Origin: Spirosoma lacussanchae
Lineage (GTDB): Bacteria > Bacteroidota > Bacteroidia > Cytophagales > Spirosomataceae
Direction: 5' to 3'
Assembly (NCBI RefSeq): GCF_005870035.1
Contig: NZ_SWJG01000001.1
Coordinates: 1-64,000, forward strand
Length of the DNA: 64,000 bases
The translations under genes were made by a program, and so were the position numbers. Below the pieces are notes generated by a model. That model ran no database searches. It saw only the letters and a program-made list of their open reading frames with translations, and was not told the DNA's origin. Each line of letters begins with the position of its first letter. Position 1 is the stretch's first letter. Of this stretch, positions 1 to 19,459 are shown piece after piece.

Positions 1-115
1 GGCCCCGAGATGAGTCATCCGGTATAAAGGGGCGTTGGAGACGACGACGTTGATAGGCGGCAGGTGTAGGCACAGAGATGTGTTGAGCTGAGCCGTACTA
101 ATGGCCCCGGACGCG
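1..115 (+). rRNA. 23S ribosomal RNA, 3' end (partial)
   Basis: The window opens inside the 23S gene. The segment with GACGACGACGTTGATAGG, then the GGTGTAGG and GAGCTGAGCCGTACTAATG stretches, matches the conserved 3' terminal domain of bacterial 23S rRNA. The exact 3' end is uncertain by about 10 nt because the matching 5' end lies outside the window. Confidence 0.93.
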
Positions 116-238
116 TGTGCTTCGCTTCGTCTGAAAAGTAGTGCGCTAGTGTTTTCTGGTTTTCCTGTGGGGAAAAAGACATTGGATATTAGATCGAGCT
201 GATCTTGTAAAGAGTTCAGGATCGATCGATGAGCAACA

Positions 239-357
239 AGCAGGTTGGTGCTGGTAAGGCGGGTGAACACCTCTTCCATTCCGAACAGAGCCGTTAAGCC
301 CCGTACTGCCGATGGTACTGCTGTCACAAGTGGGAGAGTAGGAAGGTGCCACCTGCT
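239..357 (+). rRNA. rrf: 5S ribosomal RNA
   Basis: A segment of about 119 nt contains the universal 5S core (CCATTCCGAACAGAG, then GTTAAGCCCC and GATGGTACTG, then GTGGGAGAGTAGG). Its ends, AGCAGGT and ACCTGCT, pair to form helix I. It follows the 23S end after a spacer of about 125 nt with no tRNA, the usual Bacteroidota arrangement. Confidence 0.95.
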
Positions 358-372
358 GTTATTGACTGCGAG

Positions 373-403
373 AGCCGTTATCCGATCCGGGTAACGGCTT
401 TTT
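373..403 (+). terminator. Intrinsic terminator of the rRNA operon
   Basis: The arms AGCCGTTA (373-380) and TAACGGCT (392-399) form a stem extended by imperfect GC pairs, followed by a T run. It lies 15 nt beyond the 5S gene on the same strand. Confidence 0.9.
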
Positions 404-457
404 GCTTATAGAACCAATCATTCTAGTAGGATTGCAGAGACAGACTATTGACTATAA

Positions 458-508
458 ATAAGGGCGGCTACGGAGACCCCAGAAGGGATTAACCATAGCC
501 GCCCTTAT
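458..508 (-). terminator. Hairpin terminator downstream of the 522-983 gene
   Basis: A perfect 13-bp inverted repeat (ATAAGGGCGGCTA at 458-470, TAGCCGCCCTTAT at 496-508) encloses a 25-nt loop. On the minus strand it follows the stop codon of the gene at 522-983 and ends in a T/A-rich tract. It could also stop plus-strand transcription leaking from the rRNA operon. Confidence 0.65.
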
Positions 509-521
509 GCTTTAAATGGTA

Positions 522-983
522 TTAAGCGAGTTCGAGTTCGCTAAACGTGGGGAGGGTGATTTTAGCAAGCAGCTGTTCTTCGAGCAGATCGGCCCAGGCG
601 TTCATATAAGCTACTACATCGTCCCGAACATTATGTTTGAGGTATCGTTTTTCGAGCGGAAAACGGGCCAATACAGCCCGATCATCCAACCGTTCGAGGT
701 GCTTTAGATCTTCCAGCATCAAACCAGCGTTCAGCATTTCATTGATCACAATATCCAGCGGCATCTGACTGGTGGGGCAATAATCATCGACCTGTTCATT
801 CCAGTCACCGTAACGTTGCATAGCGTACCGGTGAATTTGATCTTTGTTTAGCTTGGTTAAAACCTGCGCCAGATTGCCACAGTTGCAGCCACCCATATGA
901 CCCCACTGGTAAGGAGATCCATTAGCCAGATTACGAGCCGTACGGCGCAACGCATCAATAAGTTCGGGGGTTGGTCGTGCCAT
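522..983 (-). CDS. Conserved hypothetical protein with a CxCG motif
   Basis: This 153-residue soluble protein belongs to no family I can name. It is mostly helical by composition. A GHMGGCNCG segment at about residues 28-36 could bind a metal or form a disulfide, but that is only suggested by the paired cysteines. It starts with ATG at 983, lies downstream of leuA on the same strand after an 80-bp gap, and ends just before a strong hairpin, so it may be the last gene of the leuA transcript. No signal peptide or membrane segment is visible. Confidence 0.7.
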   Translation of the reverse strand: MARPTPELIDALRRTARNLANGSPYQWGHMGGCNCGNLAQVLTKLNKDQIHRYAMQRYGDWNEQVDDYCPTSQMPLDIVINEMLNAGLMLEDLKHLERLDDRAVLARFPLEKRYLKHNVRDDVVAYMNAWADLLEEQLLAKITLPTFSELELA

Positions 984-1063
984 GATAAAACAAGGTTTAT
1001 TGATTGACTGGCTAACAGCCTGTTAATCCGTTTTGTTCGCCGTTGGCGCTGGCTGCTGAGAGA

Positions 1064-2203
1064 TTATCGTACCAGCTCCATCAGGTCTTTATCATTCACT
1101 TCTTTACGTATATCAGCCATGTCCAGGAAGCGCGTGTAAATGCCATCCAGGGTTGGTTTATCATAGCGGAAGCCCAGCAGTTCGAGCCGATGTTTAAGGG
1201 CGTGGCGGCCGCTGCGAGCCGTTAAAACGATAGATGACTCCGGTACACCTACATCATGCGGATTCATGATCTCGTAGTTCTCCGAATGTTTCAGAAAGCC
1301 GTCCTGGTGGATACCCGACGAATGAGCAAAAGCGTTACGACCAACAATGGCTTTGTTGGCCTGCACCGGCATCCGCATCATCTGCGAGACAAGGTTGCTG
1401 ACGGGGAAAAGACGGGTTGAGTCAACATTAGTGTAGTAGCCCAGTTCTTTATGTACTTTGAGCGCCATCACCACCTCTTCGAGGGACGTATTACCCGCCC
1501 GTTCGCCAATGCCATTCATTGTAACCTCAACCTGACGCGCACCGTTCATCACACCCGCCAGCGTATTGGCGGTGGCCAGGCCCAGATCATTGTGGCAGTG
1601 GATTGAAATAGTAGCCTGATGGACGTTGGATACGTTTTCGTAGATGTAAGCGATTTTACGCCCGTACTCATCGGGCAGGCAATAGCCAGTCGTATCCGGG
1701 ATATTCACTACCGTCGCCCCGGCCCGGATCACAGCTTCGGTCAGCTGCGCCAGAAAAACCAGGTCAGCCCGTCCGGCATCTTCGGCGTAAAACTCGACAT
1801 CTTCAACGTAGGTTTTGGCATGTTTGACGGCCGCTACAGCCTGTTCCAGGATCTTCTCCCGAGTACTGCCAAACTTGTTCCGGATGTGAATATCTGAAGA
1901 GCCTATACCGGTATGGATACGGCCCCGTTTAGCCAGTTTCAGCGCTTCGCCAGCCGCGTCGATATCACCCTTGACTGCCCGGCTTAACGCACAGACGGTT
2001 GGCTCTGTGACGGCTTTAGCAATTTCAACCACTGAACGGAAATCGCCGGGGCTGGAAACCGGGAAGCCAGCTTCGATGATGTCAACGCCTAGTCGCTCCA
2101 GTTCTCTGGCGACAATGATTTTTTCTTCAGTGGTTAACTGACAGCCGGGGACTTGCTCTCCATCGCGCAGGGTGGTATCGAAAATATAAACTCGCTGGCT
2201 CAT
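1064..2203 (-). CDS. leuA: 2-isopropylmalate synthase, short form without regulatory domain
   Basis: This enzyme condenses acetyl-CoA with 2-oxoisovalerate in the first committed step of leucine synthesis. The HMGL-like TIM barrel is complete: the DTTLRDGEQ signature is at residues 9-17, the metal-binding HCHND motif at 202-206, and the NGIGERAGN loop near residue 230. The protein is 379 residues, about 120-140 shorter than enzymes with the C-terminal LeuA dimerisation/allosteric domain, so feedback control by leucine through that domain is not expected. This short form is common in Bacteroidota. It has its own promoter and a leader with a terminator, so control appears to be exerted at transcription. 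The paralogue at 3599-5122 has the full-length architecture. Confidence 0.92.
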
Positions 2204-2244
2204 ACTTATTAGTAATGACTGATTGGCAATTTATCTGATTATAC

Positions 2245-2279
2245 AAAAAATGCTCTTTCTGTTGCGAGAAAGAGCATTT
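2245..2279 (-). terminator. Attenuator terminator in the leuA leader
   Basis: A perfect 13-bp stem (arms at 2267-2279 and 2248-2260) with a 6-nt loop is followed on the minus strand by six or more T residues. It lies inside the untranslated leader, 42 nt before the leuA start codon, so it must be bypassed for leuA to be expressed. The upstream sequence GAGAAAGA (complement of 2293-2300) can pair perfectly over 8 bp with TCTTTCTC (complement of 2266-2273) in the terminator's first arm, giving a competing antiterminator. Confidence 0.8.
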
Positions 2280-2302
2280 ATAGAAAAGCCTATCTTTCTC
2301 CG

Positions 2303-2353
2303 TCAACAAACGTAAGGTTTCTGCAGTCGGTTAAGTGAAGGCGTCAGGATCAT
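2303..2353 (-). CDS. Putative leuA leader peptide
   Basis: A 16-codon frame, MILTPSLNRLQKPYVC, starts with ATG at 2353 and ends with TGA at 2303-2305. It lies between the leuA promoter and the attenuator terminator. It has three leucine codons (positions 3, 7, 10) plus one Ile and one Val. The antiterminator arm begins 2 nt after its stop codon, so a ribosome at the stop would cover it while one stalled at a Leu codon would not. Leucine enrichment is modest and no Shine-Dalgarno site is visible, so translation is inferred. Confidence 0.5.
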   Translation of the reverse strand: MILTPSLNRLQKPYVC

Positions 2354-2355
2354 CG

Positions 2356-2378
2356 GCGAAATTTCGCTGGTTGCGTAA
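2356..2378 (-). promoter_or_regulatory. Palindrome-containing element shared with ilvD
   Basis: On the plus strand this block reads GCGAAATTTCGC (a perfect 12-nt palindrome), then TGG and TTGCGTAA. The same 23 nt recur with one mismatch at 19431-19453, upstream of ilvD. In both places the block begins 6-8 nt after the predicted -7 box, so it covers about the first 25 transcribed bases. It may be an operator for a dimeric regulator or an RNA element. Confidence 0.6.
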
Positions 2379-2386
2379 ACACGCTA

Positions 2387-2417
2387 CAAAAATAGAATTT
2401 TAAAAAAGATCTGCAAA
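2387..2417 (-). promoter_or_regulatory. leuA promoter, Bacteroidota type
   Basis: On the minus strand a TTTG -33 element (2414-2417) is separated by exactly 19 nt from a TATTTTTG -7 element (2387-2394), matching the Bacteroidota sigma-A consensus TTTG/N19-21/TAnnTTTG. Transcription should start near 2380, giving a leader of about 175 nt before leuA. Confidence 0.75.
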
Positions 2418-2452
2418 TGAAATTTTATTTTTAGTACAAGCCTATTCGACGG

Positions 2453-3529
2453 CTATGCCTGAAGGAGTTGCAGAATTTGTTGCCCCATGGCATCAGTCCC
2501 CAATACGTACTCGGGCTGAGTGGTTGGACTGGCAATGTCGCGGGTGCGGTAGCCAGCTTTCAGCACAGCGTCTACGGCGCTAACAACGGCTTCGGCTTCG
2601 GCTTTCAGGCCAAACGATATGTCGAGCATCAGCGCTACCGATAATACTGAAGCCAACGGGTTAGCCACTCCTTTGCCGGTAATATCATGCGCAGAGCCGT
2701 GGATGGGCTCATATACGCCGGTATTGTCGCCAACAGAAGCCGAGGCCAGCATACCCATTGATCCGGCAATCTGGCTGGCTTCGTCGGTCAGGATATCGCC
2801 GAAGAGGTTGCCCGTAACGACAACATCAAACCGTTTTGGATCTTTGATAAGCAGCATGGCGGCAGCATCGATGAACTGGTGTTCGACCTGTACGTCGGCG
2901 TACTCGGGGGCAATGGCCTGCACTACCTCCCGCCACAGCCGGCTGCTTTCCAGCACATTTGCTTTATCGACCGAACAGAGCCGCTTGTTACGGGTGCGGG
3001 CGGCTTCGAACGCTTTCCGAACAATACGTTCTACTTCATATTTGCTGTAGATCATTGTATCGTAGGCGGTATTGCCTTCGTCGAGTCGTTCGCGTTTGCC
3101 GAAATAAACATCGCCGGTCAGTTCACGGAAGAACAGGATGTCGGCACCCCGCAAAATTTCGGGCTTGATACTCGATGCGTCGAGCAGTTCGTCGAAGAGT
3201 TTGATGGGCCGCAGGTTGGCGTAAAGTCCCAGCTCTTTGCGCATCTGCAGCAAACCCTGCTCGGGACGAACTTTGGCGGTAGGGTCGTTATCGTACTTGG
3301 GATGGCCAACGGCTCCGAACAGGATTGCATCGGCCGCCCGCATTTTGGTCAGGGTTTCGTCGGGTAGGGGCGAGCCGGTTGCTTCGATTGCCACGTGACC
3401 AATGAGAGCCTCGTCATAAGTGAATTCGTGACCAAACTTTTGGGCAATGGCTTCAAGAACCTGCTTGCCAATGGTTGTTACTTCGGCACCAATGCCGTCG
3501 CCGGGAACTACAAGGATGTGTTTTTTCAT
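2453..3529 (-). CDS. leuB: 3-isopropylmalate dehydrogenase
   Basis: This enzyme oxidises and decarboxylates 3-isopropylmalate to 2-oxoisocaproate with NAD. The 358-residue length is normal. The N-terminal LVVPGDGIGAEV segment and the GSAHDITGKGVANP segment near residue 280 are typical of the isocitrate/isopropylmalate dehydrogenase family. It lies 69 bp downstream of cimA and ends 36 bp before the leuA promoter, so it closes the leuC-leuD-cimA-leuB transcript. It could also act on 3-methylmalate from the citramalate route, as LeuB does in other organisms. Confidence 0.95.
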   Translation of the reverse strand: MKKHILVVPGDGIGAEVTTIGKQVLEAIAQKFGHEFTYDEALIGHVAIEATGSPLPDETLTKMRAADAILFGAVGHPKYDNDPTAKVRPEQGLLQMRKELGLYANLRPIKLFDELLDASSIKPEILRGADILFFRELTGDVYFGKRERLDEGNTAYDTMIYSKYEVERIVRKAFEAARTRNKRLCSVDKANVLESSRLWREVVQAIAPEYADVQVEHQFIDAAAMLLIKDPKRFDVVVTGNLFGDILTDEASQIAGSMGMLASASVGDNTGVYEPIHGSAHDITGKGVANPLASVLSVALMLDISFGLKAEAEAVVSAVDAVLKAGYRTRDIASPTTQPEYVLGTDAMGQQILQLLQA

Positions 3530-3598
3530 GAAAAAGAGAATGGAGAAACGCGGAGTAAAAGAGGCAGCTCTACGAGAGGCTTTCTTTAGGCGTTTCCT

Positions 3599-5122
3599 TT
3601 AGTCTAAAGTATTCAACATTTTTTGGGTAGCCTTGATCGCCGATACGGTCTGATCAGAGTCGAGGCCCCGGGTTTTGAATTCGTGGTTTTTGACTTTCCA
3701 GGTGATGATGGTCTCGCAGAGCGCATCTGTACGACCACCGGTCGGAATCCGTACGGCATAGTCGGTCAGTTCGGGCAGAACGAGCTTTTTGCGGCTGTAA
3801 ATTTTCTTCAGCGCATTCATAAAGGCATCGTACTGCCCGTCGCCCTGGGCATTTTCTTCAAACTGTTCGCTATCGATGCGGACGCGTAACGTAGCTGACG
3901 GCTTCAGGTCTTTAGAATGAGTCAGCACGTAATTGAGCACTTCTACCCGCGATGCTACCGCGTTGGTGTTGAGCACGTCGGCAATAACATAGGGTAGGTC
4001 CTCGCGGGTGACAACCTCTTTTTGATCGCCCAGTTCGATAACGCGCTGGGTCACTTTCCGAAGGTCATCGTCCGATAGCTGAATACCCAGCTCGCGTAGG
4101 TTGTTCTCGATATTGGCTTTGCCGGAAGTTTTACCGAGGGCGTAGCTACGTTTGCGACCGAAGCGTTCGGGCAGCAGCGCGTTGAAGTAGAGATTGTTTT
4201 TCTTGTCGCCATCGGCATGGATGCCGGCCGTCTGGGTGAACACGTTGTCACCCACTACGGGTTTATTATCCGGAATCCGAAGGCCGGAAAACGTTTCGAC
4301 AATTTTGCTGACCTGATACAGCGATTTTTCGACCACACCCAGCTTTACCTCCGGCATGAAGTCGTGCAATACGGCCAGGGTGCTGGCCAGTGGTGCATTG
4401 CCAGCCCGCTCACCCAGCCCGTTTACGGTCAGGTGAATGCCGTGGGCACCAGCGCGTATGGCTTCCATCACGTTGGCCACCCCGAGATCGTAGTCGTTAT
4501 GGGCGTGAAAATCGAAGTGGAGGGCGGGATAGCGATTTACCAGCTGATGAACGAACTGATACGATTCGGCTGGGGTCAGCACCCCCAGTGTATCGGGCAA
4601 AAGAACCCGACGGATGGGTTGGGTTTGCAGAAAATCCAGGAACTGAAATACGTACCCGGGTGAGTTACGCATGCCATTACTCCAGTCTTCCAGGTACACA
4701 TTAATCTGAAACCCGGCCAGCTGGGCCTGACTAACCATCTGTTGAATATCGCCGAAATGCTGGTCGGGCGTTTTCTTGAGCTGATGAGTCAGGTGGTTCA
4801 TGGACCCTTTCGTCAGCAGGTTCATGACTTTAGCGCCCGATTCCCGCATCCAGTCGAGGGAGGCTTGTCCATCGACAAAGGTAAGCACTTCGACCCGGTC
4901 GAGTAAACCCATACCGGCTGCCCAGCGTGTAATCTGCCGAACGGCCTCCAGCTCGCCCGCCGACACCCGTGCCGACGCCACTTCTACCCGATCAACCTTT
5001 ACTTCGGTAAGCAGTACCTGGGCTAACGCTAACTTCTCGGACGCCGAAAACGACACCCCGCTGGTCTGTTCACCATCGCGGAGGGTCGTATCCATAATTT
5101 CAATATAACGGCGGGTTTTCAT
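3599..5122 (-). CDS. cimA: (R)-citramalate synthase-like enzyme with LeuA regulatory domain
   Basis: This enzyme probably condenses pyruvate with acetyl-CoA to citramalate, opening a threonine-independent route to 2-oxobutyrate and isoleucine. The 507-residue protein has DTTLRDGEQ at residues 11-19, NVYLEDWSNG at 141-150, HAHND at 206-210, and a complete C-terminal LeuA-type allosteric domain over about the last 130 residues. Segments such as VEVASARVS, FTQTAGIHADGDKK and GGRTDAL resemble, from memory, the characterised Leptospira citramalate synthase more than isopropylmalate synthases. An upstream ATG at 5146 exists, but the ATG at 5122 puts the catalytic signature at the usual place. A second LeuA-type enzyme is the alternative. 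Confidence 0.8.
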   Translation of the reverse strand: MKTRRYIEIMDTTLRDGEQTSGVSFSASEKLALAQVLLTEVKVDRVEVASARVSAGELEAVRQITRWAAGMGLLDRVEVLTFVDGQASLDWMRESGAKVMNLLTKGSMNHLTHQLKKTPDQHFGDIQQMVSQAQLAGFQINVYLEDWSNGMRNSPGYVFQFLDFLQTQPIRRVLLPDTLGVLTPAESYQFVHQLVNRYPALHFDFHAHNDYDLGVANVMEAIRAGAHGIHLTVNGLGERAGNAPLASTLAVLHDFMPEVKLGVVEKSLYQVSKIVETFSGLRIPDNKPVVGDNVFTQTAGIHADGDKKNNLYFNALLPERFGRKRSYALGKTSGKANIENNLRELGIQLSDDDLRKVTQRVIELGDQKEVVTREDLPYVIADVLNTNAVASRVEVLNYVLTHSKDLKPSATLRVRIDSEQFEENAQGDGQYDAFMNALKKIYSRKKLVLPELTDYAVRIPTGGRTDALCETIITWKVKNHEFKTRGLDSDQTVSAIKATQKMLNTLD

Positions 5123-5150
5123 GAAGTAAAATGAGTGGTTGGGCAAACGA

Positions 5151-5200
5151 GTGATGGAGTGGCCAATGCGCCTGATGACGCGCTCAATTCACTCCATCAC
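5151..5200. repeat. Inverted repeat between leuD and cimA
   Basis: GTGATGGAGTG (5151-5161) is matched by CACTCCATCAC (5190-5200), an 11-bp perfect inverted repeat in the 102-bp gap between leuD and cimA. More CACTCA/TCACTC units follow it up to about 5216. It belongs with the similar repeat cluster between leuC and leuD and may form a hairpin within the operon mRNA. Confidence 0.5.
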
Positions 5201-5224
5201 CATTCACTCAATCACTCAGTGAGG

Positions 5225-5836
5225 TTAGAACGGTCTGGTATCGGCAAAGGCTTCGATTTCGGACTTCATCGACAGGAGGTAGTCAATGTCGTCGTAGCCG
5301 TTGAGCAGGTTGTGCTTCTTGTATTCGTTAATGGCGAAGCGCTCGCTGTCGCCCGTGGCCAGGAGGGTGATGGTCTGCTCGGGCAGGTTCACTTCCAGCT
5401 CGGTGCTGGGGTCAGCTTCAATGGCTGCGAAGATTCTATCCGCAAACTCGTGGCTAACCGTAACGGGCAGTATGCCGACGTTGAGGCAGTTATTCTTAAA
5501 AATATCGGCGAAGAAGCTCGATACGACGCAGCGAAATCCATAGTCATAAATAGCCCAGGCTGCATGTTCGCGGCTCGATCCGCTGCCGAAATTTTTACCA
5601 CCCACCAGAATTTTACGGGCTGGGCCGTTGGCCGAGTAGGTTGGGTTGTTGAGTACGAAATCGGCCTTGGGGGTGTTGTCGGGGTTATAGCGCCAGTCGC
5701 GGAACAGGTTGTCGCCAAAGCCCTTGCGCTCCGTCGCTTTCAGGAAGCGGGCAGGAATAATCTGATCCGTATCGACGTTCTCGATGGGCATCGGAACGGC
5801 CGCACTGCGAAGAATGGTGAAATTATCGTAAGCCAT
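5225..5836 (-). CDS. leuD: 3-isopropylmalate dehydratase, small subunit
   Basis: With LeuC this subunit isomerises 2-isopropylmalate to 3-isopropylmalate. At 203 residues it is of normal length. It shows the swivelling-domain signature of the family: [13 protein letters not shown] at residues 22-34 and [17 protein letters not shown] in the middle. It follows leuC after 100 bp of repeat-rich spacer. In a genome with CimA, LeuCD is also expected to isomerise citramalate. Confidence 0.95.
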
Positions 5837-5848
5837 GTTAACCGTAAT

Positions 5849-5936
5849 AAGTGATGAGTGATGAACGATGAGTGATAAGTGTTAAGGTCGGTCGGTTCAT
5901 ATCGGCCGCTCATAACTCAGCACTCATAGCTCATCG
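5849..5936. repeat. GAGTGATGA-type short repeats between leuC and leuD
   Basis: Near-tandem units of about 7-9 nt (GTGATGAGTG, ATGAACGATG, AGTGATAAGT) at 5851-5880 are partly complementary to the ACTCAGCACTC and ATAGCTCATCGC units at about 5912-5938. The spacer could fold into an imperfect cruciform. Similar units occur between leuD and cimA. Confidence 0.5.
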
Positions 5937-7337
5937 CTATATGAATTCTCTGGGATCTGTGACTTTGCCTGTTACGGCGGCTGCAGCGGCAACGAGCGGG
6001 CTCGCCAGCAGGGTGCGGGCGCCTGGCCCCTGACGACCTTCGAAGTTGCGGTTCGAGGTAGATACGGCGTACTTGCCGGCCGGAATCTTGTCTTCGTTCA
6101 TGGCCAGGCAGGCTGAGCAACCCGGCTGACGGAGTTCAAAACCGGCTTCGGTCAGGATGTCCAGAATACCTTCTTCTTTGATCTGCCGCTCCACCACATG
6201 CGAGCCCGGTACGAGCCAGGCCGTAACGTTATCGGCTTTCCGGTGGCCTTTTACGATCGACGCAAAGGCGCGGAAATCCTCAATCCGACCGTTGGTGCAG
6301 CTGCCCAGAAAAACGAAGTCAATGGGTTTGCCGACCATCGATTCGTTCTCAGCGAAGCCCATGTACTGCAACGATTTTTTGTAACTGGCCGCGCCATCTT
6401 TCACCGCTTCGGCTACTGGAATCTGCCGCGATATGCCCGTTCCTAAACCGGGGTTGGTACCGTACGTAATCTGCGGTTCGATGTTGGCGGCATCGAAGGT
6501 CAGGTCTACGTCAAACTCGGCCCCCTCGTCGGTGCTGAGCGACTCCCAGTACGGAACCAGCCTATCCCAGGCTTCGCCTTTGGGGGTCATTTCGCGGCCG
6601 TTGAGGTAGTTGAGGGTGGTCTGGTCGGGTGCAATGATACCACCGCGCGCGCCCATCTCGATGCTCATGTTACAGACCGTCATACGGCCTTCCATGCTCA
6701 TGTTGCGGAACACCTCGCCGGCGTATTCGACAAAATAGCCCGTTGCGCCACTGGCCGAAATCTGCGCAATGATGTAAAGGATTACGTCTTTGGGCATGAC
6801 CGCCTTACTAAGCGTACCGTTTACGGTTATCCGCATTTTCTTCGGCTTCGGCTGCATAATACACTGCGAAGCCAGCACCATTTCTACTTCCGAGGTGCCG
6901 ATCCCGAATGCAATAGCCCCGAACGCACCGTGGGTCGACGTATGCGAGTCGCCACAGACGATGGTCATGCCGGGTAGGGTAATGCCGTTTTCGGGACCGA
7001 TTACGTGCACGATGCCGTTTTTCTGGTGGCCCAAACCCCAGTGAGAAATGCCGTACTTAGCCGTGTTGACTTCCAGCGCCCTGAGCTGATTGGCCGATAG
7101 TGGATCGGCAACGGGCAGATGCTGGTTAAGGGTTGGGGTGTTGTGATCGGCGGTAGCGAAGGTACGTCCGGGAAACAATACCGGCGCGCCCCGGCCCTCG
7201 AGACCCAGAAACGCTACGGGGCTGGTTACTTCGTGGATGAAATGACGATCGATGAACAACACATCGGGGCCATCTTCGACATGCCGGATGACGTGCGCAT
7301 CCCAGACTTTATCAAATAAGGTTTTTGGGGTACTCAT
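5937..7337 (-). CDS. leuC: 3-isopropylmalate dehydratase, large subunit
   Basis: This is the [4Fe-4S] aconitase-type subunit of isopropylmalate isomerase. The 466-residue length is normal. The cluster-binding cysteines are recognisable in [14 protein letters not shown] and in [11 protein letters not shown], and the substrate-binding [26 protein letters not shown] block is complete. It is the first gene of a leuC-leuD-cimA-leuB block. The 157-bp upstream region contains a possible promoter and a CTTTGT/ACAAAG inverted repeat (7352-7371) but not the leuA/ilvD palindrome. Confidence 0.96.
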
Positions 7338-7494
7338 GGTTGTAGCGGAAACTTTGTTCGTAGCTACAAAGGTGATGAGTTGTTACCGGGCCGACATCTC
7401 GTTAGGCGTCCAATAAATAGTGTTTTTAGCTCACGACTATCAAATGGACGGAAAACTATATTGACTGGTAATGACGGTCACGAAGAAAGTATCT

Positions 7495-8076
7495 TTATGA
7501 ACGGCTTGCCGCTCTTTGCCGCATTCGCCTGGGGCCGTACCAAAGCCAGAATCCGGTTACCGTGAACAGCAGCAGGGCCAGGCCGGTAATGGTCGTGTAA
7601 ACGAGTTTGATCTGGCCGTCGCTGGTTCCGGCGTAGAAGTCGAGGAGGGAGCCGTCGTGAATTTTTTCGATGAAGTCAGACCGTCGTTGTTCGATGTGGA
7701 GCAGTTTACCGGTGGCGCCATCCAGCTGTACACCCCAGAAATGATCGGCAAACACGAATTTAACCATGCCTTTATCTTTCCGAACGTCGATCCGCTCCAG
7801 CTCCAGCGATAATTCGGGCGATATCGAGTCCCGTACTATCCGACAGGCGTTTTTATGCAGGCTATCGAGCGGCAGCCAGTCGGCCAGGTTGGTCGATGTG
7901 CCTTTGTAAGATTTGGGAAGCAGGAGCCCACCGCTATTTTTCTTCCAGCCCAGCAGCAAACCGGTCACGGAGATAAACAAAAAGAACACAAATAACAGCG
8001 CCCCCGTTGTCCGATGTAGTTTTCTGGAAATTCGCAATACTTTGGCTTGCTGTTGTCTCTTCTGGCTCTCCGTCAT
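7495..8076 (-). CDS. PepSY-associated membrane protein
   Basis: This 193-residue protein has a membrane helix near residues 24-44, a predicted periplasmic region of about 110 residues, and a second helix near 158-180 ending in GFWLWYGPRRM. The layout and the HRTTGALL and TGFWLWYGP motifs match the PepSY-associated TM family, often found beside iron-uptake genes. No TonB-dependent receptor is adjacent here. The closest gene upstream is an AraC regulator on the same strand. The role is unknown; a part in iron reduction or uptake is only suggested by relatives. Confidence 0.75.
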   Translation of the reverse strand: MTESQKRQQQAKVLRISRKLHRTTGALLFVFFLFISVTGLLLGWKKNSGGLLLPKSYKGTSTNLADWLPLDSLHKNACRIVRDSISPELSLELERIDVRKDKGMVKFVFADHFWGVQLDGATGKLLHIEQRRSDFIEKIHDGSLLDFYAGTSDGQIKLVYTTITGLALLLFTVTGFWLWYGPRRMRQRAASRS

Positions 8077-8296
8077 GGTGGATTATAGAGGATATTGCAG
8101 GGGGGGCAGCGCTGCATAAACTAAGCCGCAAACTACAGCGATTTCTGGTAAGAAGTAAGCACCACCCAGGTAGAATGCGCCCATAGCGTTGCGCGTGGCA
8201 GGCTATAAATCACTGAGCTATCTGTTGATAAAAGACGGTAAGCAAGGCCGCAGTCCGTCAACCAGAAACGTGGTCTCCGGCCAAAGCTGAGTCGAC

Positions 8297-8335
8297 GAAA
8301 CCAGCGTCCTCCCGACAAACTAGTTTGTTGGTTTC
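8297..8335. promoter_or_regulatory. Nested palindrome between araC-type gene and PepSY gene
   Basis: GAAACC (8297-8302) and GGTTTC (8330-8335) flank the perfect 14-nt palindrome ACAAACTAGTTTGT (8315-8328). It lies in the 290-bp gap between the AraC regulator and the PepSY gene, both on the minus strand. No gene is visible in this gap. The palindrome could be an operator for the PepSY gene or the end hairpin of the regulator's mRNA, although no T run follows. Confidence 0.35.
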
Positions 8336-8367
8336 GAGCGGATGAATGATATATGATTCGTATAGGA

Positions 8368-9258
8368 TCAGTTGCCCCGCTTGGGCGTAGTGCCGTATTG
8401 CTGTTTGTAAGCCTTGATAAAATGGGAGACGCTCTCATAGCCGATTTCCATGCTGACTTCGGAGACGTTTTTAGTAGTGTTGCGGAGCAGAAAGTGGGCG
8501 TGCTCAAGCCGTCGCTGGCGAATCCAGTGGCCGGGTGAGGTATGAAACTGCGCTTCGAAGTCGCGTTTGAAGGCCGACAGGCTCCGCCCCGATAGCCGCG
8601 CCAGTTCGTTCATAGACAAGGGCTTGAGCAGGTAGGTGTTCATCAGGTAGGTAAGGTCCGTTTTCTGGCCCTGGTAAATGTGGAGCAGAATAGCCCGTAG
8701 CTGACCGCTTGTATCGAGTTCGAGCAGGTGGAGCAGTAACTCCTGGAATTTGAGCCGAAGCAGCTCGTTCAGAAACGGTGTGCCCGACCCGAAATACGGC
8801 AGCAGCGACTGAATGAATGTCGTAAAGGCAGGCGAAGAGGTCAGCGACAGAATAGGCTCGTCGGGCAGCGGACGGTGCCGGTCCTGAAAAAGCGAGAGGT
8901 GCTGGTTAACAAACTCCTTGAGCATCTTCTCATTGACGAAGAAGACCAGACTTTTGTAGTTCGCGTCGATGGACTCGTTCATGGAGTAGCACCCCCGCTG
9001 AAAAAACAGAATCTGCCCTTTCCGGACGTGGAGCTCCTGGGTAGATGAGTTAAATTTTTTCTCCCCTTCCAGCACAACAATTACGGCATGCTCCTCAAAA
9101 AATACCTCGTTCCGCTCGGGATACACATCGCTGCGATACGCCACAAAAGTCATCTCCGACCCGTCGGACCGCGACCCGTCGGCCGGGTCGGTGCCGGGTC
9201 GGCGGATGCTCAGCGACGCAAACTGACTGGGCTGTATGGACGATGGAACGCGGAGCAT
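8368..9258 (-). CDS. AraC-family transcriptional regulator
   Basis: The 296-residue protein has a cupin-like N-terminal sensor half (EEHAVIVVLEGEKKF at about residues 54-68 marks the beta fold) and a C-terminal double helix-turn-helix. The second HTH has the family signature VSEVSMEIGYESVSHFIKAYKQQYGTTP. The ligand is unknown. It lies upstream of the PepSY gene on the same strand, which is its most obvious candidate target. The start at 9258 is ATG and is only 5 bp from the inverted repeat bounding the next unit. Confidence 0.85.
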   Translation of the reverse strand: MLRVPSSIQPSQFASLSIRRPGTDPADGSRSDGSEMTFVAYRSDVYPERNEVFFEEHAVIVVLEGEKKFNSSTQELHVRKGQILFFQRGCYSMNESIDANYKSLVFFVNEKMLKEFVNQHLSLFQDRHRPLPDEPILSLTSSPAFTTFIQSLLPYFGSGTPFLNELLRLKFQELLLHLLELDTSGQLRAILLHIYQGQKTDLTYLMNTYLLKPLSMNELARLSGRSLSAFKRDFEAQFHTSPGHWIRQRRLEHAHFLLRNTTKNVSEVSMEIGYESVSHFIKAYKQQYGTTPKRGN

Positions 9259-9262
9259 TTAT

Positions 9263-9826
9263 TTTCGACAAGATTTACAGGATGAACAGGATTTTTCTTT
9301 TATATATCAATAAATTAGCTTTAAGAGTATAAAATCTCGCTTTATATGCTTCGTGAAGAGCTTACTGAGTTAATCATTGGGGCCGCTTTCACGGTTCACA
9401 ACGCTTTGGGACCGGGATTTTTAGAAAAAGTATATGAAAACGCTTTGGTCGTCGAATTGCAGCACCACGGATTGTTTGTTGAAGCGCAGATACCCATTCC
9501 TGTTTTATACAAAGGCATTACTGTTGGCGATTTTGTGGCTGACTTGTTTATTGAAAATTGCCTTCTGATCGAGCTGAAAGCAGTTAAGCAGGTGCATCCA
9601 AAACATGAAGCTCAGTTGGTCAATTACCTCACGGCAACAGGTATTGACATTGGACTACTGATTAATTTTGGCGCAAGTGTGAGCGTTAAGCGCAAGTATC
9701 GTGTCCGTGCATCCGCTAAGTAAGCCGAAAAGCCATACTTCACTATATTTTTGTCGAGCCCGTCTGCTTTACGCTATACATCCTATGTAAGAGCAAATCC
9801 TGTCCATCCCGTAAATCCTGTCAAAA
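9263..9826. mobile_element. Inverted-repeat-bounded GxxExxY unit (candidate mobile unit)
   Basis: A 33-nt repeat at 9263-9295 (containing GATTTACAGGATGAACAGG) and its inverted counterpart at 9793-9826 (complement containing GATTTACGGGATGGACAGG) differ at only a few positions. Each is built of three AGGAT-type units spaced about 9-10 nt. They enclose a single gene at 9346-9723. The left repeat begins 5 bp from the AraC start codon and the right repeat ends 4 bp from the ilvA stop codon, so the unit fills the intergenic gap exactly. No transposase is present. Mobility is an inference. Confidence 0.55.
9346..9723 (+). CDS. GxxExxY protein, PD-(D/E)XK nuclease-like
   Basis: This 125-residue protein carries the family signature G24-F-L-E27-K-V-Y30. 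D66 followed by E76-L-K78 in ADLFIENCLLIELK fits the PD-(D/E)XK nuclease motif, as does the later YLTATGIDIGLLINFG segment. The catalytic pattern appears intact. The function of the family is unknown. It is the only plus-strand gene between positions 1000 and 19600 and is bordered by inverted repeats rich in AGGAT units. From memory, similar repeats often accompany this family in unrelated bacteria, which suggests a self-contained genetic unit. Confidence 0.85.
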   Translation: MLREELTELIIGAAFTVHNALGPGFLEKVYENALVVELQHHGLFVEAQIPIPVLYKGITVGDFVADLFIENCLLIELKAVKQVHPKHEAQLVNYLTATGIDIGLLINFGASVSVKRKYRVRASAK

Positions 9827-9829
9827 GCT

Positions 9830-11095
9830 TTAGATCAAAAACTGGAACAAATCGGGTTTGTCATTGACGTGCTCGAATACGATGTTCTGGGCCTGCATAC
9901 GCTGGATGAGCGGCTCAAAATCGTCGCGGTTTTTCAGTTCGATGCCGACCAGCGCGGGGCCGGTTTCGCGGTTGGTTTTTTTGGCGTACTCGAAGCGGGT
10001 GATATCGTCGGTGGGGCCGAGCACGTTTAGGAAGTCGCGAAAAGCACCCGAGCGTTGCGGAAACCGGATAATGAAGTAATGCTTGAGCCCTTCGTACAAC
10101 AGCGACCGCTCCTTGATTTCTTCCGTACGGGTAATATCGTTGTTGCCGCCCCCTACCAGACAAACTACGTTTTTGCCTTTGATTTCGTCTTTCAGCAGAT
10201 CGAGCGCGGCAATGCTGAGGGCACCGGCGGGCTCGGCAACGATGGCTTCTTCGTTATAAAGTTGCAGGATGGTCGTACAAACCTTACCCTCGGGTACCAG
10301 CACCACCCGGTCGAGGTTCTGGCGGCAGATGTCGAAGGTGATGTCGCCCACGCGCTTGACAGCCGCTCCATCTACGAACTTGTCGATGTGGTCGAGCGGC
10401 ACAACGTGGCCTTCGTCCATCGATACTTTCATAGAAGGCGACCCGAGTGGTTCCACACCGATCAGTTTGGTTTTGGGGCTAAGCTGCTTAAAAACCGTCG
10501 ATACCCCCGAAGCTAGTCCGCCCCCGCCAATAGCCATCAGCACGTAATCGATCTTGAAACTGGCGTCTTTGAAAATTTCCAGCCCAACGGTTCCCTGGCC
10601 TTCCATCACCAGTATGTCGTCGAAGGGGTGAACAAAAGTGCTATCATGAGTCTGTACGTATTCGTTGGCAGCCACGTAGGCATCGTCGTATGTATCGCCG
10701 ATCAGAACCACGTCAACGAACTCCTTGCCGAACAGCTTTACCTGCTTCACTTTCTGGTTCGGGGTGGTAGTAGGCATAAAAATGGTGCCTTTAACGCCCA
10801 TTTTACGGCAGGCATAGGCCAGGCCCTGCGCGTGATTACCAGCACTGGCGCAAACAACGCCTTTGGCGAGTGCTTCCTGGGGCAGCGACGCCATTTTGTT
10901 ATAGGCACCCCGAATCTTGTACGACCGGACCACCTGTAGGTCTTCGCGCTTCAGAAAGATGTTGGCTTCGTAGCGATCCGACAGGTTCAGATTTTCCTGT
11001 AGGGGCGTATGGGTCGCAATGCCGCGGAGCCGGTCGGCCGCGAGGTATATATTATCGAGATCGGGAGCGAGGGTATGCTGATCGGTGTCTACCAC
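9830..11095 (-). CDS. ilvA: Threonine ammonia-lyase (threonine deaminase)
   Basis: This PLP enzyme converts threonine to 2-oxobutyrate for isoleucine synthesis. The PLP lysine lies in SYKIRGAYNKM (K60 from the start used here), and the phosphate-binding loop is GGGGLASG. The C-terminal 80 residues form an ACT-like regulatory domain (HYFIIRFPQRSGAFRDFL). A TTG at 11122 would give a longer frame, but a TATTTTTG promoter-like box overlaps it at 11121-11128, so the GTG at 11095 is preferred. ilvA is separated from the other ilv genes by the DUF4256/DUF3667 insertion. Confidence 0.9.
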   Translation of the reverse strand: MVDTDQHTLAPDLDNIYLAADRLRGIATHTPLQENLNLSDRYEANIFLKREDLQVVRSYKIRGAYNKMASLPQEALAKGVVCASAGNHAQGLAYACRKMGVKGTIFMPTTTPNQKVKQVKLFGKEFVDVVLIGDTYDDAYVAANEYVQTHDSTFVHPFDDILVMEGQGTVGLEIFKDASFKIDYVLMAIGGGGLASGVSTVFKQLSPKTKLIGVEPLGSPSMKVSMDEGHVVPLDHIDKFVDGAAVKRVGDITFDICRQNLDRVVLVPEGKVCTTILQLYNEEAIVAEPAGALSIAALDLLKDEIKGKNVVCLVGGGNNDITRTEEIKERSLLYEGLKHYFIIRFPQRSGAFRDFLNVLGPTDDITRFEYAKKTNRETGPALVGIELKNRDDFEPLIQRMQAQNIVFEHVNDKPDLFQFLI

Positions 11096-11243
11096 GGCTG
11101 TTGATGAGTGCTTTTTGTACAAAAATACAAAATCTCTATCGGGGATAGGTAACGAACCAACTACCCGTTAACAAACAAAGTGAGGGTAACGGGCCCGGCG
11201 CTGAAGCCGCCGATTCGTCAGCGGGTTGCTAGCTGAACAAGGT

Positions 11244-11813
11244 TTAAACCCGTAGCGAGCCACGAAAGCCACGGGCGGCATAATAGGAGGGGGCGCTGTT
11301 GTGGAAAACAAAGACGTGGCCATAGCGGTACTCGGCAAAGAGCGCACCACCCAGTTTTCGGATGGCGGCCGGTGTCATTATCCAGCTCGACGTTTTGGTA
11401 TCGAAGGGGCCGAGTTGCTGTAGCGCCCGATATTGCTCTTCGGTCAGTAGGTCAATACCCAGTTCGGCCGCCAGATCGACTGCGTTGTTTTCTGGTTTGT
11501 ACTCTTTCCTCGAATCCTGACCCTCGCGGTCGTAACAAACGCTCCGGCGGCCTTTGGGACTTTCGACCGAACAGTCGTAAAAAACGTACTCGTCCGTCGC
11601 GCTGTCATACTCGACCACATCAGGTTCGCCACCGGTCAGTTCCATTTCGTTGAGCGACCATACTTTGGCCGGGTTCGCGTCCAGCTTTGCCGCCACATCG
11701 GCCCAGGCAATGTTCTGATGTCGGTTCTTGTGCTTCTCAAACCGCGCTTTCAACACGTTGATCAACTCGTCGCGTTGGTTTGAAGTCAAAGCCAATTGGT
11801 TTGTTAGAGCCAT
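11244..11813 (-). CDS. DUF4256 family protein
   Basis: The 189-residue soluble protein matches DUF4256: LNEMELTGGEPDVVE, a mid-region rich in acidic and aromatic residues, and the C-terminal AEYRYGHVFVFHNSAPSYYAARGFRGSLRV. The function is unknown. It starts with ATG at 11813 and lies upstream of ilvA on the same strand with a 148-bp gap holding a short CCGTTA/TAACGG hairpin. Composition matches the GC-rich genome, unlike the genes just upstream. Confidence 0.85.
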   Translation of the reverse strand: MALTNQLALTSNQRDELINVLKARFEKHKNRHQNIAWADVAAKLDANPAKVWSLNEMELTGGEPDVVEYDSATDEYVFYDCSVESPKGRRSVCYDREGQDSRKEYKPENNAVDLAAELGIDLLTEEQYRALQQLGPFDTKTSSWIMTPAAIRKLGGALFAEYRYGHVFVFHNSAPSYYAARGFRGSLRV

Positions 11814-11888
11814 GCAGTTGAATTGTGTAGACGTGGTTTAGGGAATATATTGGTCGCTAGACCACCAAATCGATAGTGGTGGCTATTT

Positions 11889-12080
11889 TTATTCTTTTGT
11901 TGTCTTTCTGTAATCTTTTATGATCAAATAAATGGTCACGATGAATGCAATCAGGAAAAGTATATCTAGCGCAGGCATTTTGAAGCTAAGGGTTTTGACG
12001 TCAAAATGCCTCAAAACCGTTGTTCCTAACATAAATGCAACAATAATGAAGATAAAATTTACTCTTTTCTTACTTTCCAT
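11889..12080 (-). CDS. Small two-helix membrane protein
   Basis: A 63-residue protein from ATG 12080 (an in-frame ATG at 12107 overlaps the upstream gene). Two hydrophobic helices, about residues 9-25 and 38-56, are joined by a short polar loop, and the tail is KDYRKTTKE. No family is recognised. It starts 4 bp after the DUF3667 stop codon, so the two are almost certainly cotranscribed. It is AT-rich like its neighbour. Confidence 0.6.
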   Translation of the reverse strand: MESKKRVNFIFIIVAFMLGTTVLRHFDVKTLSFKMPALDILFLIAFIVTIYLIIKDYRKTTKE

Positions 12081-17728: not shown

Positions 17729-19423
17729 TCAGAATTCGTCGGTTACGCAGCCTTCGCTGGCCGACTTTACGTTCCGGATGTATTTGCCCAGCACGCCCTT
17801 GCTGAACCGCGGCTGGGGCTGTACCCAGTGGCTTCGGCGCTCGGCCAGCTCGTCGTCCGATACGTGCAGGGTAAGCTCACGACCAACGGCATCGAGCGTG
17901 ATCAGGTCGCCATCTTTTACCAGCGCGATCGGTCCGCCTTCGAAGGCCTCGGGGGTAACGTGACCTACCACAAACCCGTGGGTGCCGCCCGAAAAACGCC
18001 CGTCAGTGATCAGCGCTACTTTGTCGCCCAGGCCCGCGCCCATGATGGCCGAGGTGGGCTTCAGCATTTCGCTCATACCCGGACCGCCTTTGGGGCCGCT
18101 GTTCCGGATTACGATGACCTGACCCGGTAGAATCTCGCCTTTCGACAGCGCTTCTATGACTTCACCCTCGTGTTCGCATACTTTGGCGACTCCTTCGAAG
18201 CGTTCGCCTTCCTTACCCGTAATTTTAGCTACGGAGCCGGTGGGAGCGAGGTTGCCGCGCAGGATCTGGATATGGCCGGTTTTTTTGATCGGCTGCGTCA
18301 GCGGAAATACGATTTTCTGCGTGTCGAAATTCAGGTCAGGTGCGTCGGCGAGGTTTTCGGCAACCGTTTTGCCCGTTACGGTCATGCAGTCGCCGTGGAT
18401 CATACCCTGCTGATAGAGGTATTTCATCACCGCTGGTACACCACCGATCGCCAGCATGTCTTCCATATAATACTTGCCGCTGGGCTTCAGGTCGGCCAGC
18501 AAAGGGGTACGGTCGCTGATGGCCTGGATATCGTCGAGGGATAATGACAGATTGGCGGCCCGGGCAATGGCGAGGTAGTGCAACACCGCGTTGGTAGAGC
18601 CGCCGAGCGCCATAACGATGGTCAGCGCGTTCTCGATGGATTTGGTCGTAATGATGTCGGCCGGGGTGATATTCTGTTCGAGCAGCACACGCATGGCAGC
18701 TCCAATCTTCTTACACTCTTCCTGTTTGCCTTCGTGCGTTGCGGGGTAGCTGCTGCTAAAGGGCAGGCTGAGGCCCATTGCTTCGATGCTGCTGGCCATG
18801 GTATTGGCCGTATACATACCTCCGCAGGCACCCGCCCCGGGAATGGCATTGCGAATAACGCCTTCGTAATCTTCGTCGGAGATGTTGTTGGCGTATTTTT
18901 TGCCCAGGGCCTCGAACGCCGATACGATGTCAAGTTTCTGACCTTTATAATGGCCCGAACGGATCGTGCCGCCGTACACCATAATGCCGGGCCGGTCGAG
19001 ACGAGCCATTGCCATAACAGCGCCCGGCATGTTCTTATCGCAGCCGACCACCGTGACGACACCGTCGTACCACTGAGCCGCCACGACCGATTCGATGCTG
19101 TCGGCGATCAGATCGCGGCTGGGCAGCGAATACTGCATGCCAGCATTTCCGTTGGTCATGCCGTCCGACACACCGATGGTATTAAAAATAAGCCCAACTA
19201 ACCCATTAGCCTGAATGCCCTGTTTCACGTAAACGGATAATCCGTTCAGATGCATGTTGCAGGTATTGCCCTCGTAACCAGTACTGGCGATACCGATCTG
19301 AGGCTTTTGCATATCATCTTCCGTGAGTCCTACCCCATAAAGCATGGCTTTGGCAGCAGGATTGCTTACTTCCTGAGTGAGGGTGCGGCTAAAGGCGTTT
19401 AGTTCGGTGTTTTTAGTAATCAT
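17729..19423 (-). CDS. ilvD: Dihydroxy-acid dehydratase
   Basis: This Fe-S enzyme dehydrates 2,3-dihydroxy-3-methyl acids to the 2-keto acids of valine and isoleucine. The 564-residue protein from ATG 19423 ([11 protein letters not shown]) has the family blocks [20 protein letters not shown] and the [20 protein letters not shown]-like segment with the cluster cysteines. A longer frame to 19516 is not needed and would cover the promoter. It leads the ilvD-methyltransferase-ilvB-ilvN-ilvC operon. The palindromic element shared with leuA ends 7 bp before its start. Confidence 0.95.
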
Positions 19424-19430
19424 GCTTATA

Positions 19431-19453
19431 GCGAAATTTCGCTGATTGCGTAA
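19431..19453 (-). promoter_or_regulatory. Palindrome-containing element shared with leuA
   Basis: This 23-nt block (GCGAAATTTCGC, TGA, TTGCGTAA on the plus strand) matches 2356-2378 in 22 of 23 positions. The palindrome extends to 14 nt here (AGCGAAATTTCGCT). It lies between the predicted transcription start and the ilvD ATG. Confidence 0.6.
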
Positions 19454-19459
19454 TGTTGC

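Follow-up and report, generated by a model that had tools for sequence, protein, structure and literature searches.

The leuA locus and its leader

Is leuA of Spirosoma lacussanchae governed by a leader of its own, and does that leader sense leucine through translation of a short frame within it? The question arises in a 64,000-nucleotide (nt) stretch at the start of contig NZ_SWJG01000001.1 (hereafter the window, at its full length), in which a promoter, a mini-ORF, the short strand GAGAAAGA, and an intrinsic terminator all sit between leuB and leuA. In the enterobacterial leuL and trpL attenuators, a mini-ORF bearing codons for the end product is combined with a terminator and a competing antiterminator, and the same three components are present here. 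With the relatives taken into account, a ribosome-mediated, leucine-sensing transcription attenuator very probably controls leuA. The finding is real and such leaders are apparently widespread in Bacteroidota; its more novel part is a box common to leuA and ilvD.

The branched-chain genes of the window, from ilvD to leuB and leuA, lie on the minus strand and run in one direction, with other genes interspersed. Family searches covered leuA, leuB, and a 515-aa relative with a LeuA_dimer domain; ilvB, ilvN, ilvC, ilvA, leuC, and leuD on the minus strand are named on our recognition of their proteins, as is the frame that we take to be ilvD. leuB shares its strand with leuA and stops 249 nt upstream of it. 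By LeuA, the nearest named relatives are Spirosoma arboris, S. endophyticum, and S. oryzae, with identities of 95, 95, and 91%, respectively, and their leuA upstream regions also turn up among genomes of the genus. The features on which the argument turns are as follows.

17729..19423, minus strand: ilvD, presumably dihydroxy-acid dehydratase
19431..19459, minus strand: second box copy, immediately ahead of ilvD
2387..2417, minus strand: Bacteroidota-type promoter TTTG-N19-TATTTTTG (TTTG at 2417-2414, TATTTTTG at 2394-2387)
2356..2384, minus strand: leuA box GCGTGTTTACGC-N5-GCGAAATTTCGC, near the presumed transcript 5′ end; probable operator
2303..2353, minus strand: leader peptide frame MILTPSLNRLQKPYVC plus stop (ATG at 2353, TGA at 2305-2303, 16 codons)
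2293..2300, minus strand: antiterminator 5′ strand, GAGAAAGA
2266..2273, minus strand: antiterminator 3′ strand, TCTTTCTC, common to the terminator 5′ arm and the first loop base
2248..2279, minus strand: intrinsic terminator hairpin of 13 bp, then a T run to about 2245
1064..2203, minus strand: leuA, 379 aa, ATG at 2203, with HMGL-like and HCS_D2 domains; no LeuA_dimer found

The original prediction had read this minus-strand order, from promoter through 16-codon frame, stop, and GAGAAAGA to a 13-bp terminator with its T run, and it is confirmed base for base. The terminator arms (2279-2267 and 2260-2248) pair at 13 of 13 positions around a 6-nt loop, and the perfect complementarity claimed between GAGAAAGA and the first terminator arm likewise holds, at eight of eight positions with 2273-2266. 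Leucine accounts for three of the 16 codons in the window leader (CTG, CTT, and CTG). Two matches to the promoter pattern TTTG-N18-21-TANNTTTG are present in the 64 kb, against 0.38 expected, and 7 of 100 shuffles contain at least two. Among the 33 Spirosoma leaders, TANNTTTG stands ahead of the box in every one, while an exact TTTG at N17-22 is found in only 13.

Predicted mechanism and geometry

Transcript start, translation, ribosome–polymerase coupling, stalling, and leucine response are all read here from sequence. RNA polymerase would initiate immediately past 2387, with a ribosome translating the 16-codon leader. When Leu-tRNA is plentiful, the ribosome would reach the stop at 2305 and hide GAGAAAGA (2300-2293); with this strand hidden, the 2279-2248 hairpin would form and transcription would stop before leuA. 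When Leu-tRNA is scarce, the ribosome would stall at CTG 2326-2324 or at an earlier Leu codon, allowing GAGAAAGA to pair with 2273-2266, so that no terminator forms and leuA is read. The separate box near the transcript start, present at ilvD too, probably brings in a DNA-binding protein as a second means of control. Translation in Bacteroidota mostly starts without Shine–Dalgarno pairing.

The distances are compatible with this scheme. A ribosome covers about 12 nt downstream (PMC4833913). By simple sequence arithmetic, a ribosome with stop 2305 in its A site would reach to about 2292 and cover 2300-2293, whereas one at Leu codon CTG 2326-2324 would reach only to about 2313 and leave that strand free. 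The usual Spirosoma leader has its second Leu codon (CTA) 12 nt ahead of the stop; by the same arithmetic, only a ribosome at the stop would cover the corresponding GGAGAAGG strand. Leader-peptide attenuation requires tight coupling between ribosome and RNA polymerase, and a case in Bacteroidota would make such coupling directly testable.

Conservation of the frame and its leucine codons

A search of 36 Spirosoma genomes yielded 33 full leuA genes. One genome (G023, 99% complete) has no clear leuA match and retains the box at ilvD; the organism is possibly a leucine auxotroph or uses another route. A hairpin precedes leuA in all 33 leaders (28 by scan and five by hand). The prediction that relatives would conserve the short frame with its Leu codons is borne out. 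With a frame defined by a first ATG no more than 30 nt from the box, at least 10 codons, and a stop 18-38 nt before the terminator, 32 of 33 Spirosoma leaders have a mini-ORF (2.3 expected from shuffled segments), as do 26 of the 27 leaders from elsewhere in the family that combine a box with a scanned terminator (1.9 expected). The Spirosoma exception (L097, genome G010), which may be an attenuator in decay, carries ACG at the position of the start ATG in its relatives.

The excess of leucine is specific to the frame. The 32 Spirosoma leaders contain 24.2% Leu, compared to 13.7% in shuffles (sd 1.5; maximum of 500, 20.2%) and to 10.6 and 15.9% in the other two frames. In 30 family leaders the share is 28.6%, against 13.3% in shuffles (maximum of 500, 17.6%) and 10.4 and 6.0% in the other frames. 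The usual Spirosoma peptide ends in RLQKLNVF or a near variant, that of the window in RLQKPYVC: the window and its sister genome G020 have CCT (Pro) at the second conserved Leu position. Elsewhere this Leu is kept, in 29 of 32 rows, and is coded by CTA, TTA, TTG, CTG, or CTT; a residue held constant through five different codons suggests that selection acts on the amino acid. CTA and CTT supply 61 and 65, respectively, of the 251 leader Leu codons in Spirosomataceae, compared to 6 and 8% of the 143 in four structural genes of the window. Identical leaders were merged for the Leu-share and duplex tests and left unmerged in the codon and box counts, and a few family loci represent the same genome twice (e.g., L006 and L221). 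Omitted from the leader counts were nine loci judged to hold chance hairpins (L230, L017, L024, L029, L035, L060, L071, L075, and L078), three ambiguous ones (L203, L216, and L012), and three lacking an ATG frame (L097, L219, and L233). By eye, L216 and L012 (identical in sequence), L219, and L233 look like TTG-started leaders with runs of Leu codons.

Terminator and antiterminator pairing

The original prediction proposed covariation in both helices as a check, and the two differ in how plainly it appears. In an alignment of 32 Spirosoma leaders, the terminator is paired in 90.4% of cells, and 28 cells carry two-sided changes against 7.9 in shuffles, a value that none of 500 shuffles equaled. 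The antiterminator, scored on fixed columns, is paired in 86.3% of cells, which 17 of 500 shuffles reached, and its covariation score was reached by two of 500; a slide of +2 yields more two-sided changes (12 cells vs. 8). Fixed-column support for the antiterminator is thus moderate. Duplex energies give a clearer picture and show co-adaptation of the two strands in relatives: in the 32 Spirosoma leaders, a strand binds its own partner at −13.9 kcal/mol, compared to −9.0 for shuffled (p = 2e-10) and −12.2 for swapped partners (p = 4e-5), and in 30 family leaders own partners also beat shuffled (p = 3e-9) and swapped ones (p = 0.008). Taken singly, 19 of 32 Spirosoma and 21 of 30 family leaders have pairings reached by no more than 10 of 200 shuffles. 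The window falls outside this set: its 8-bp antiterminator alone lies within chance (26 of 200 shuffles pair equally well) and gains weight only because of its relatives.

Folding of the window sequence adds further detail. The 61 nt from antiterminator to terminator fold better than expected (z = −3.3; 2 of 200 shuffles as good), while the 93-nt leader deprived of the terminator 3′ arm is as stable as its shuffles (z = −0.03). In that same 93-nt fold, GAGAAAGA is paired with the terminator 5′ arm. In one fold of the window, GAGAAA forms a local hairpin with bases further downstream, in competition with the antiterminator. A small hairpin near the stop codon appears in 31 of 32 folds, as a raw count, and shows no covariation; a protector hairpin (1:2) at this position is no more than a possible third element.

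A box shared by leuA and ilvD

Between promoter and mini-ORF lies an element that the original prediction had passed over, the box CGC-N5-GCGAAWWTTCGC, which is common to leuA and ilvD. The pattern TTACGCNNNYAGCGAAWTTTCGC, with up to two mismatches, finds matches in all 36 Spirosoma genomes, compared to two matches overall for the reversed control. The box stands just upstream of ilvD in 36 of 36 genomes (the window and 35 loci), and the palindrome GCGANNNNTCGC occurs in 33 of 33 Spirosoma leuA leaders. Elsewhere in Spirosoma there are two weak matches (L193 and L194), the other third matches being the ilvD site on the opposite strand. In genome G011, leuA and ilvD are 1.5 Mb apart and both retain the box. 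Across the family, CRCNNNNNGCGAAWWTTCGC turns up in 84 of 160 genomes, spread over 22 of 36 genera, against nine control hits in eight genomes; of 30 such loci inspected, 25 lie at leuA or ilvD (the latter recognized by eye from its N-terminus) and five elsewhere. Outside the family, the CGC form occurs in 4 of 212 genomes versus 2 for the control, which is near chance.

The palindrome is present in 62 of 88 leuA leaders examined. Its distance from the −7 TTTG is 11 nt in 59 of these sites and 10 in two, with no TTTG found in the remaining one. The four central bases, left open by the search pattern, are only ever AATT, ATTT, or AAAT; the flanking GCGA and TCGC were fixed by the pattern. Such spacing, roughly one turn of the helix, together with the invariant half sites is suggestive of an operator close to where transcription begins, and the box is probably bound by a regulator. 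It bears no apparent resemblance to the CodY motif, and it may serve as a marker for a branched-chain amino acid regulator. At two family loci, L200 (genus g7) and L201 (g8), the box precedes the leuA ATG by 46 and 28 nt, respectively, which leaves scant space for a leader, with no terminator by scan. Box and attenuator are therefore separable.

Alternative readings of the locus

The hairpin could simply end the leuB operon, with promoter and short frame there by chance. The same-strand position of leuB, 249 nt upstream, fits this reading, as does a hairpin of the ordinary intrinsic-terminator type. Against it, the promoter precedes the hairpin, conservation of the frame and its Leu bias is far above chance, and promoter, frame, and hairpin remain with leuA even when its closest upstream neighbor is another gene (L087) or is encoded on the other strand (L007). 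As the leader accompanies leuA without leuB for a neighbor, the leuB terminator was rejected as an explanation and is very improbable. Hardly better placed is a switch consisting of only a protein at the box, or of an RNA that binds a small molecule or tRNA, with a mini-ORF that senses nothing. Conservation of the box at both leuA and ilvD would agree with such a switch, as would L200 and L201, where the box stands at leuA without a scanned terminator. The mini-ORF is, however, strongly conserved at the codon level, the pairing strand falls within the stretch that a ribosome positioned at the stop would hide, and Rfam offers no T-box or riboswitch match in window positions 1-12000 or in 20 leuA loci. 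A ribosome-mediated, leucine-sensing attenuator stays much the preferred reading of the leader.

The nature of the box itself is less sharply decided. Rather than a DNA operator, it could be a pair of RNA hairpins influencing translation initiation on the mini-ORF or on ilvD. Its place is after the −7 element, with an ATG following 1-14 nt later in 58 of 62 leuA sites, and in the window it folds into two 4-bp hairpins (z = −1.7; 10 of 200 shuffles as good). Yet the outer A and T are fixed, as they would be in a 5-bp half site, though they would belong to the hairpin loop in RNA; the 11-nt spacing to the −7 TTTG holds in 59 of 62 sites; and the first palindrome is broken at ilvD. Action through RNA is accordingly a possibility of some substance and an unlikely one, and a DNA operator is preferred.

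Leaders beyond Spirosoma

Of the family genomes, 155 gave a match (Spirosoma among them), and 40 leuA upstream regions were retrieved from those outside Spirosoma. A terminator with an ATG frame was found in 19 of the 40 by script and in four more by eye; 16 of 40, from 15 genera, have no terminator by scan at leuA, one of which (L228) looks scan-missed. The leader is present in the named Dyadobacter (nine of nine), Runella, Arsenicibacter, and Siphonobacter loci; two named Larkinella loci are without terminator and frame. Among 61 further loci, mostly Bacteroidales, 26 have leaders.

These Bacteroidales-type leaders favor isoleucine, at 20.3% in frame compared to 6.3 and 5.0% in the other frames and 8.6% in shuffles (maximum of 500, 11.5%). 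Their Leu content of 15.2% is not frame-specific (16.2% in frame +1). In this group the antiterminator strand, typically GGAAGTGAG, shares bases with the last part of the ORF: the post-stop segment taken by itself gives no pairing (p =.45), whereas a segment shifted to the ORF end, a shift made post hoc, pairs in the 26 leaders with p = 2e-7 against shuffled and 7e-5 against swapped partners. Within L021-L072, loci such as L037 (Parabacteroides distasonis), L050, and L068 contain Ile/Leu mini-ORFs together with GGAAGTG-type strands that pair with the terminator.

Leaders are also encountered at ilvD. Among 10 box-bearing ilvD loci of genus g27 (L244-L253), nine have a leader in which Ile, Val, and Leu codons occur (for example, MKNNTVLVIPIILLLV or MSQNKVIIVPIILLLNK), followed by a terminator-like stretch, judged by appearance; in L244, the first-ATG rule picked another frame. 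ilvD serves all three branched-chain amino acids and leuA leucine only. Codon content matches the gene in each case, with Leu for leuA and Ile/Val/Leu for ilvD in g27. In Rfam release 15, with the gathering score as threshold, window positions 1-12000 match only rRNA and, away from the leader, a sub-threshold mir-306 (E up to 1), and 20 leuA loci from all groups match only rRNA and tRNA, with no Leu leader among them. On balance, the observations lean modestly toward an undescribed codon-matched attenuation in Bacteroidota (Leu for leuA, Ile/Leu for Bacteroidales leuA, and Ile/Val/Leu for ilvD), joined in Spirosomataceae by a separate leuA/ilvD regulon marked by CGC-N5-GCGAAWWTTCGC and a putative regulator.

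Relation to known systems

The Bacteroid-trp RNA (RF01692) is located ahead of trp genes. It too is a candidate cis-regulatory RNA of Bacteroidetes (PMC2864571), and it has no match in the Spirosoma genome. Long 5′ UTRs with short frames resembling leader peptides are described in Bacteroides thetaiotaomicron, the one example given still awaiting validation according to that paper (PMC7366714). The ilv-leu operon of Staphylococcus aureus combines a Leu-rich leader peptide with CodY acting on the same promoter, its leader lying upstream of ilvD (PMC5794164); a Leu-rich leader with separate control, here by a putative DNA-binding regulator, is a shared design, while leuA in the present case has its own leader. 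Similarly, the Corynebacterium glutamicum ilvBNC leader is a 15-residue frame with branched-chain amino acid codons beside the transcript start, for which a three-hairpin model is drawn (PMC11857589); codon type and position near the transcript start are alike, and phylum, gene, and sequences differ.

The original prediction likened the leader to trp/leu attenuation of enterobacteria. The likeness is upheld by the conserved frame, the Leu bias, and the co-adapted pairing, in what is a simpler, two-hairpin form: unlike leuL and trpL, it has no proven first hairpin, and the three Leu codons of the window are scattered rather than in a run (by sequence, the systems were compared via Rfam only). 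The literature searched, of partial coverage, names no leuA attenuator in Bacteroidota; Lopatovskaya 2010, reportedly a comparative study of attenuation, may include such cases.

LeuA domain content

The original prediction remarked that the enzyme lacks its leucine-binding domain, and a domain search indeed finds no LeuA_dimer (PF08502) in the 379-aa LeuA. The proposed attenuator suggests a way in which leuA could respond to leucine nonetheless. The further link implied, between the missing domain and attenuation, did not survive comparison: among detected leaders, to which the comparison is confined because the class without leader is unreliable (it contains L001-L003 and scan-missed leaders), 26, all Bacteroidales-type, precede LeuA frames of more than 420 aa and 12 precede short ones. 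Downstream of leuA on the minus strand, a 153-aa frame (522-983) has no Pfam or NCBIfam match. The 515-aa relative (3599-5146, minus strand) does contain LeuA_dimer, and its best NCBIfam match, under the cut-off, is the Leptospira-type citramalate synthase.
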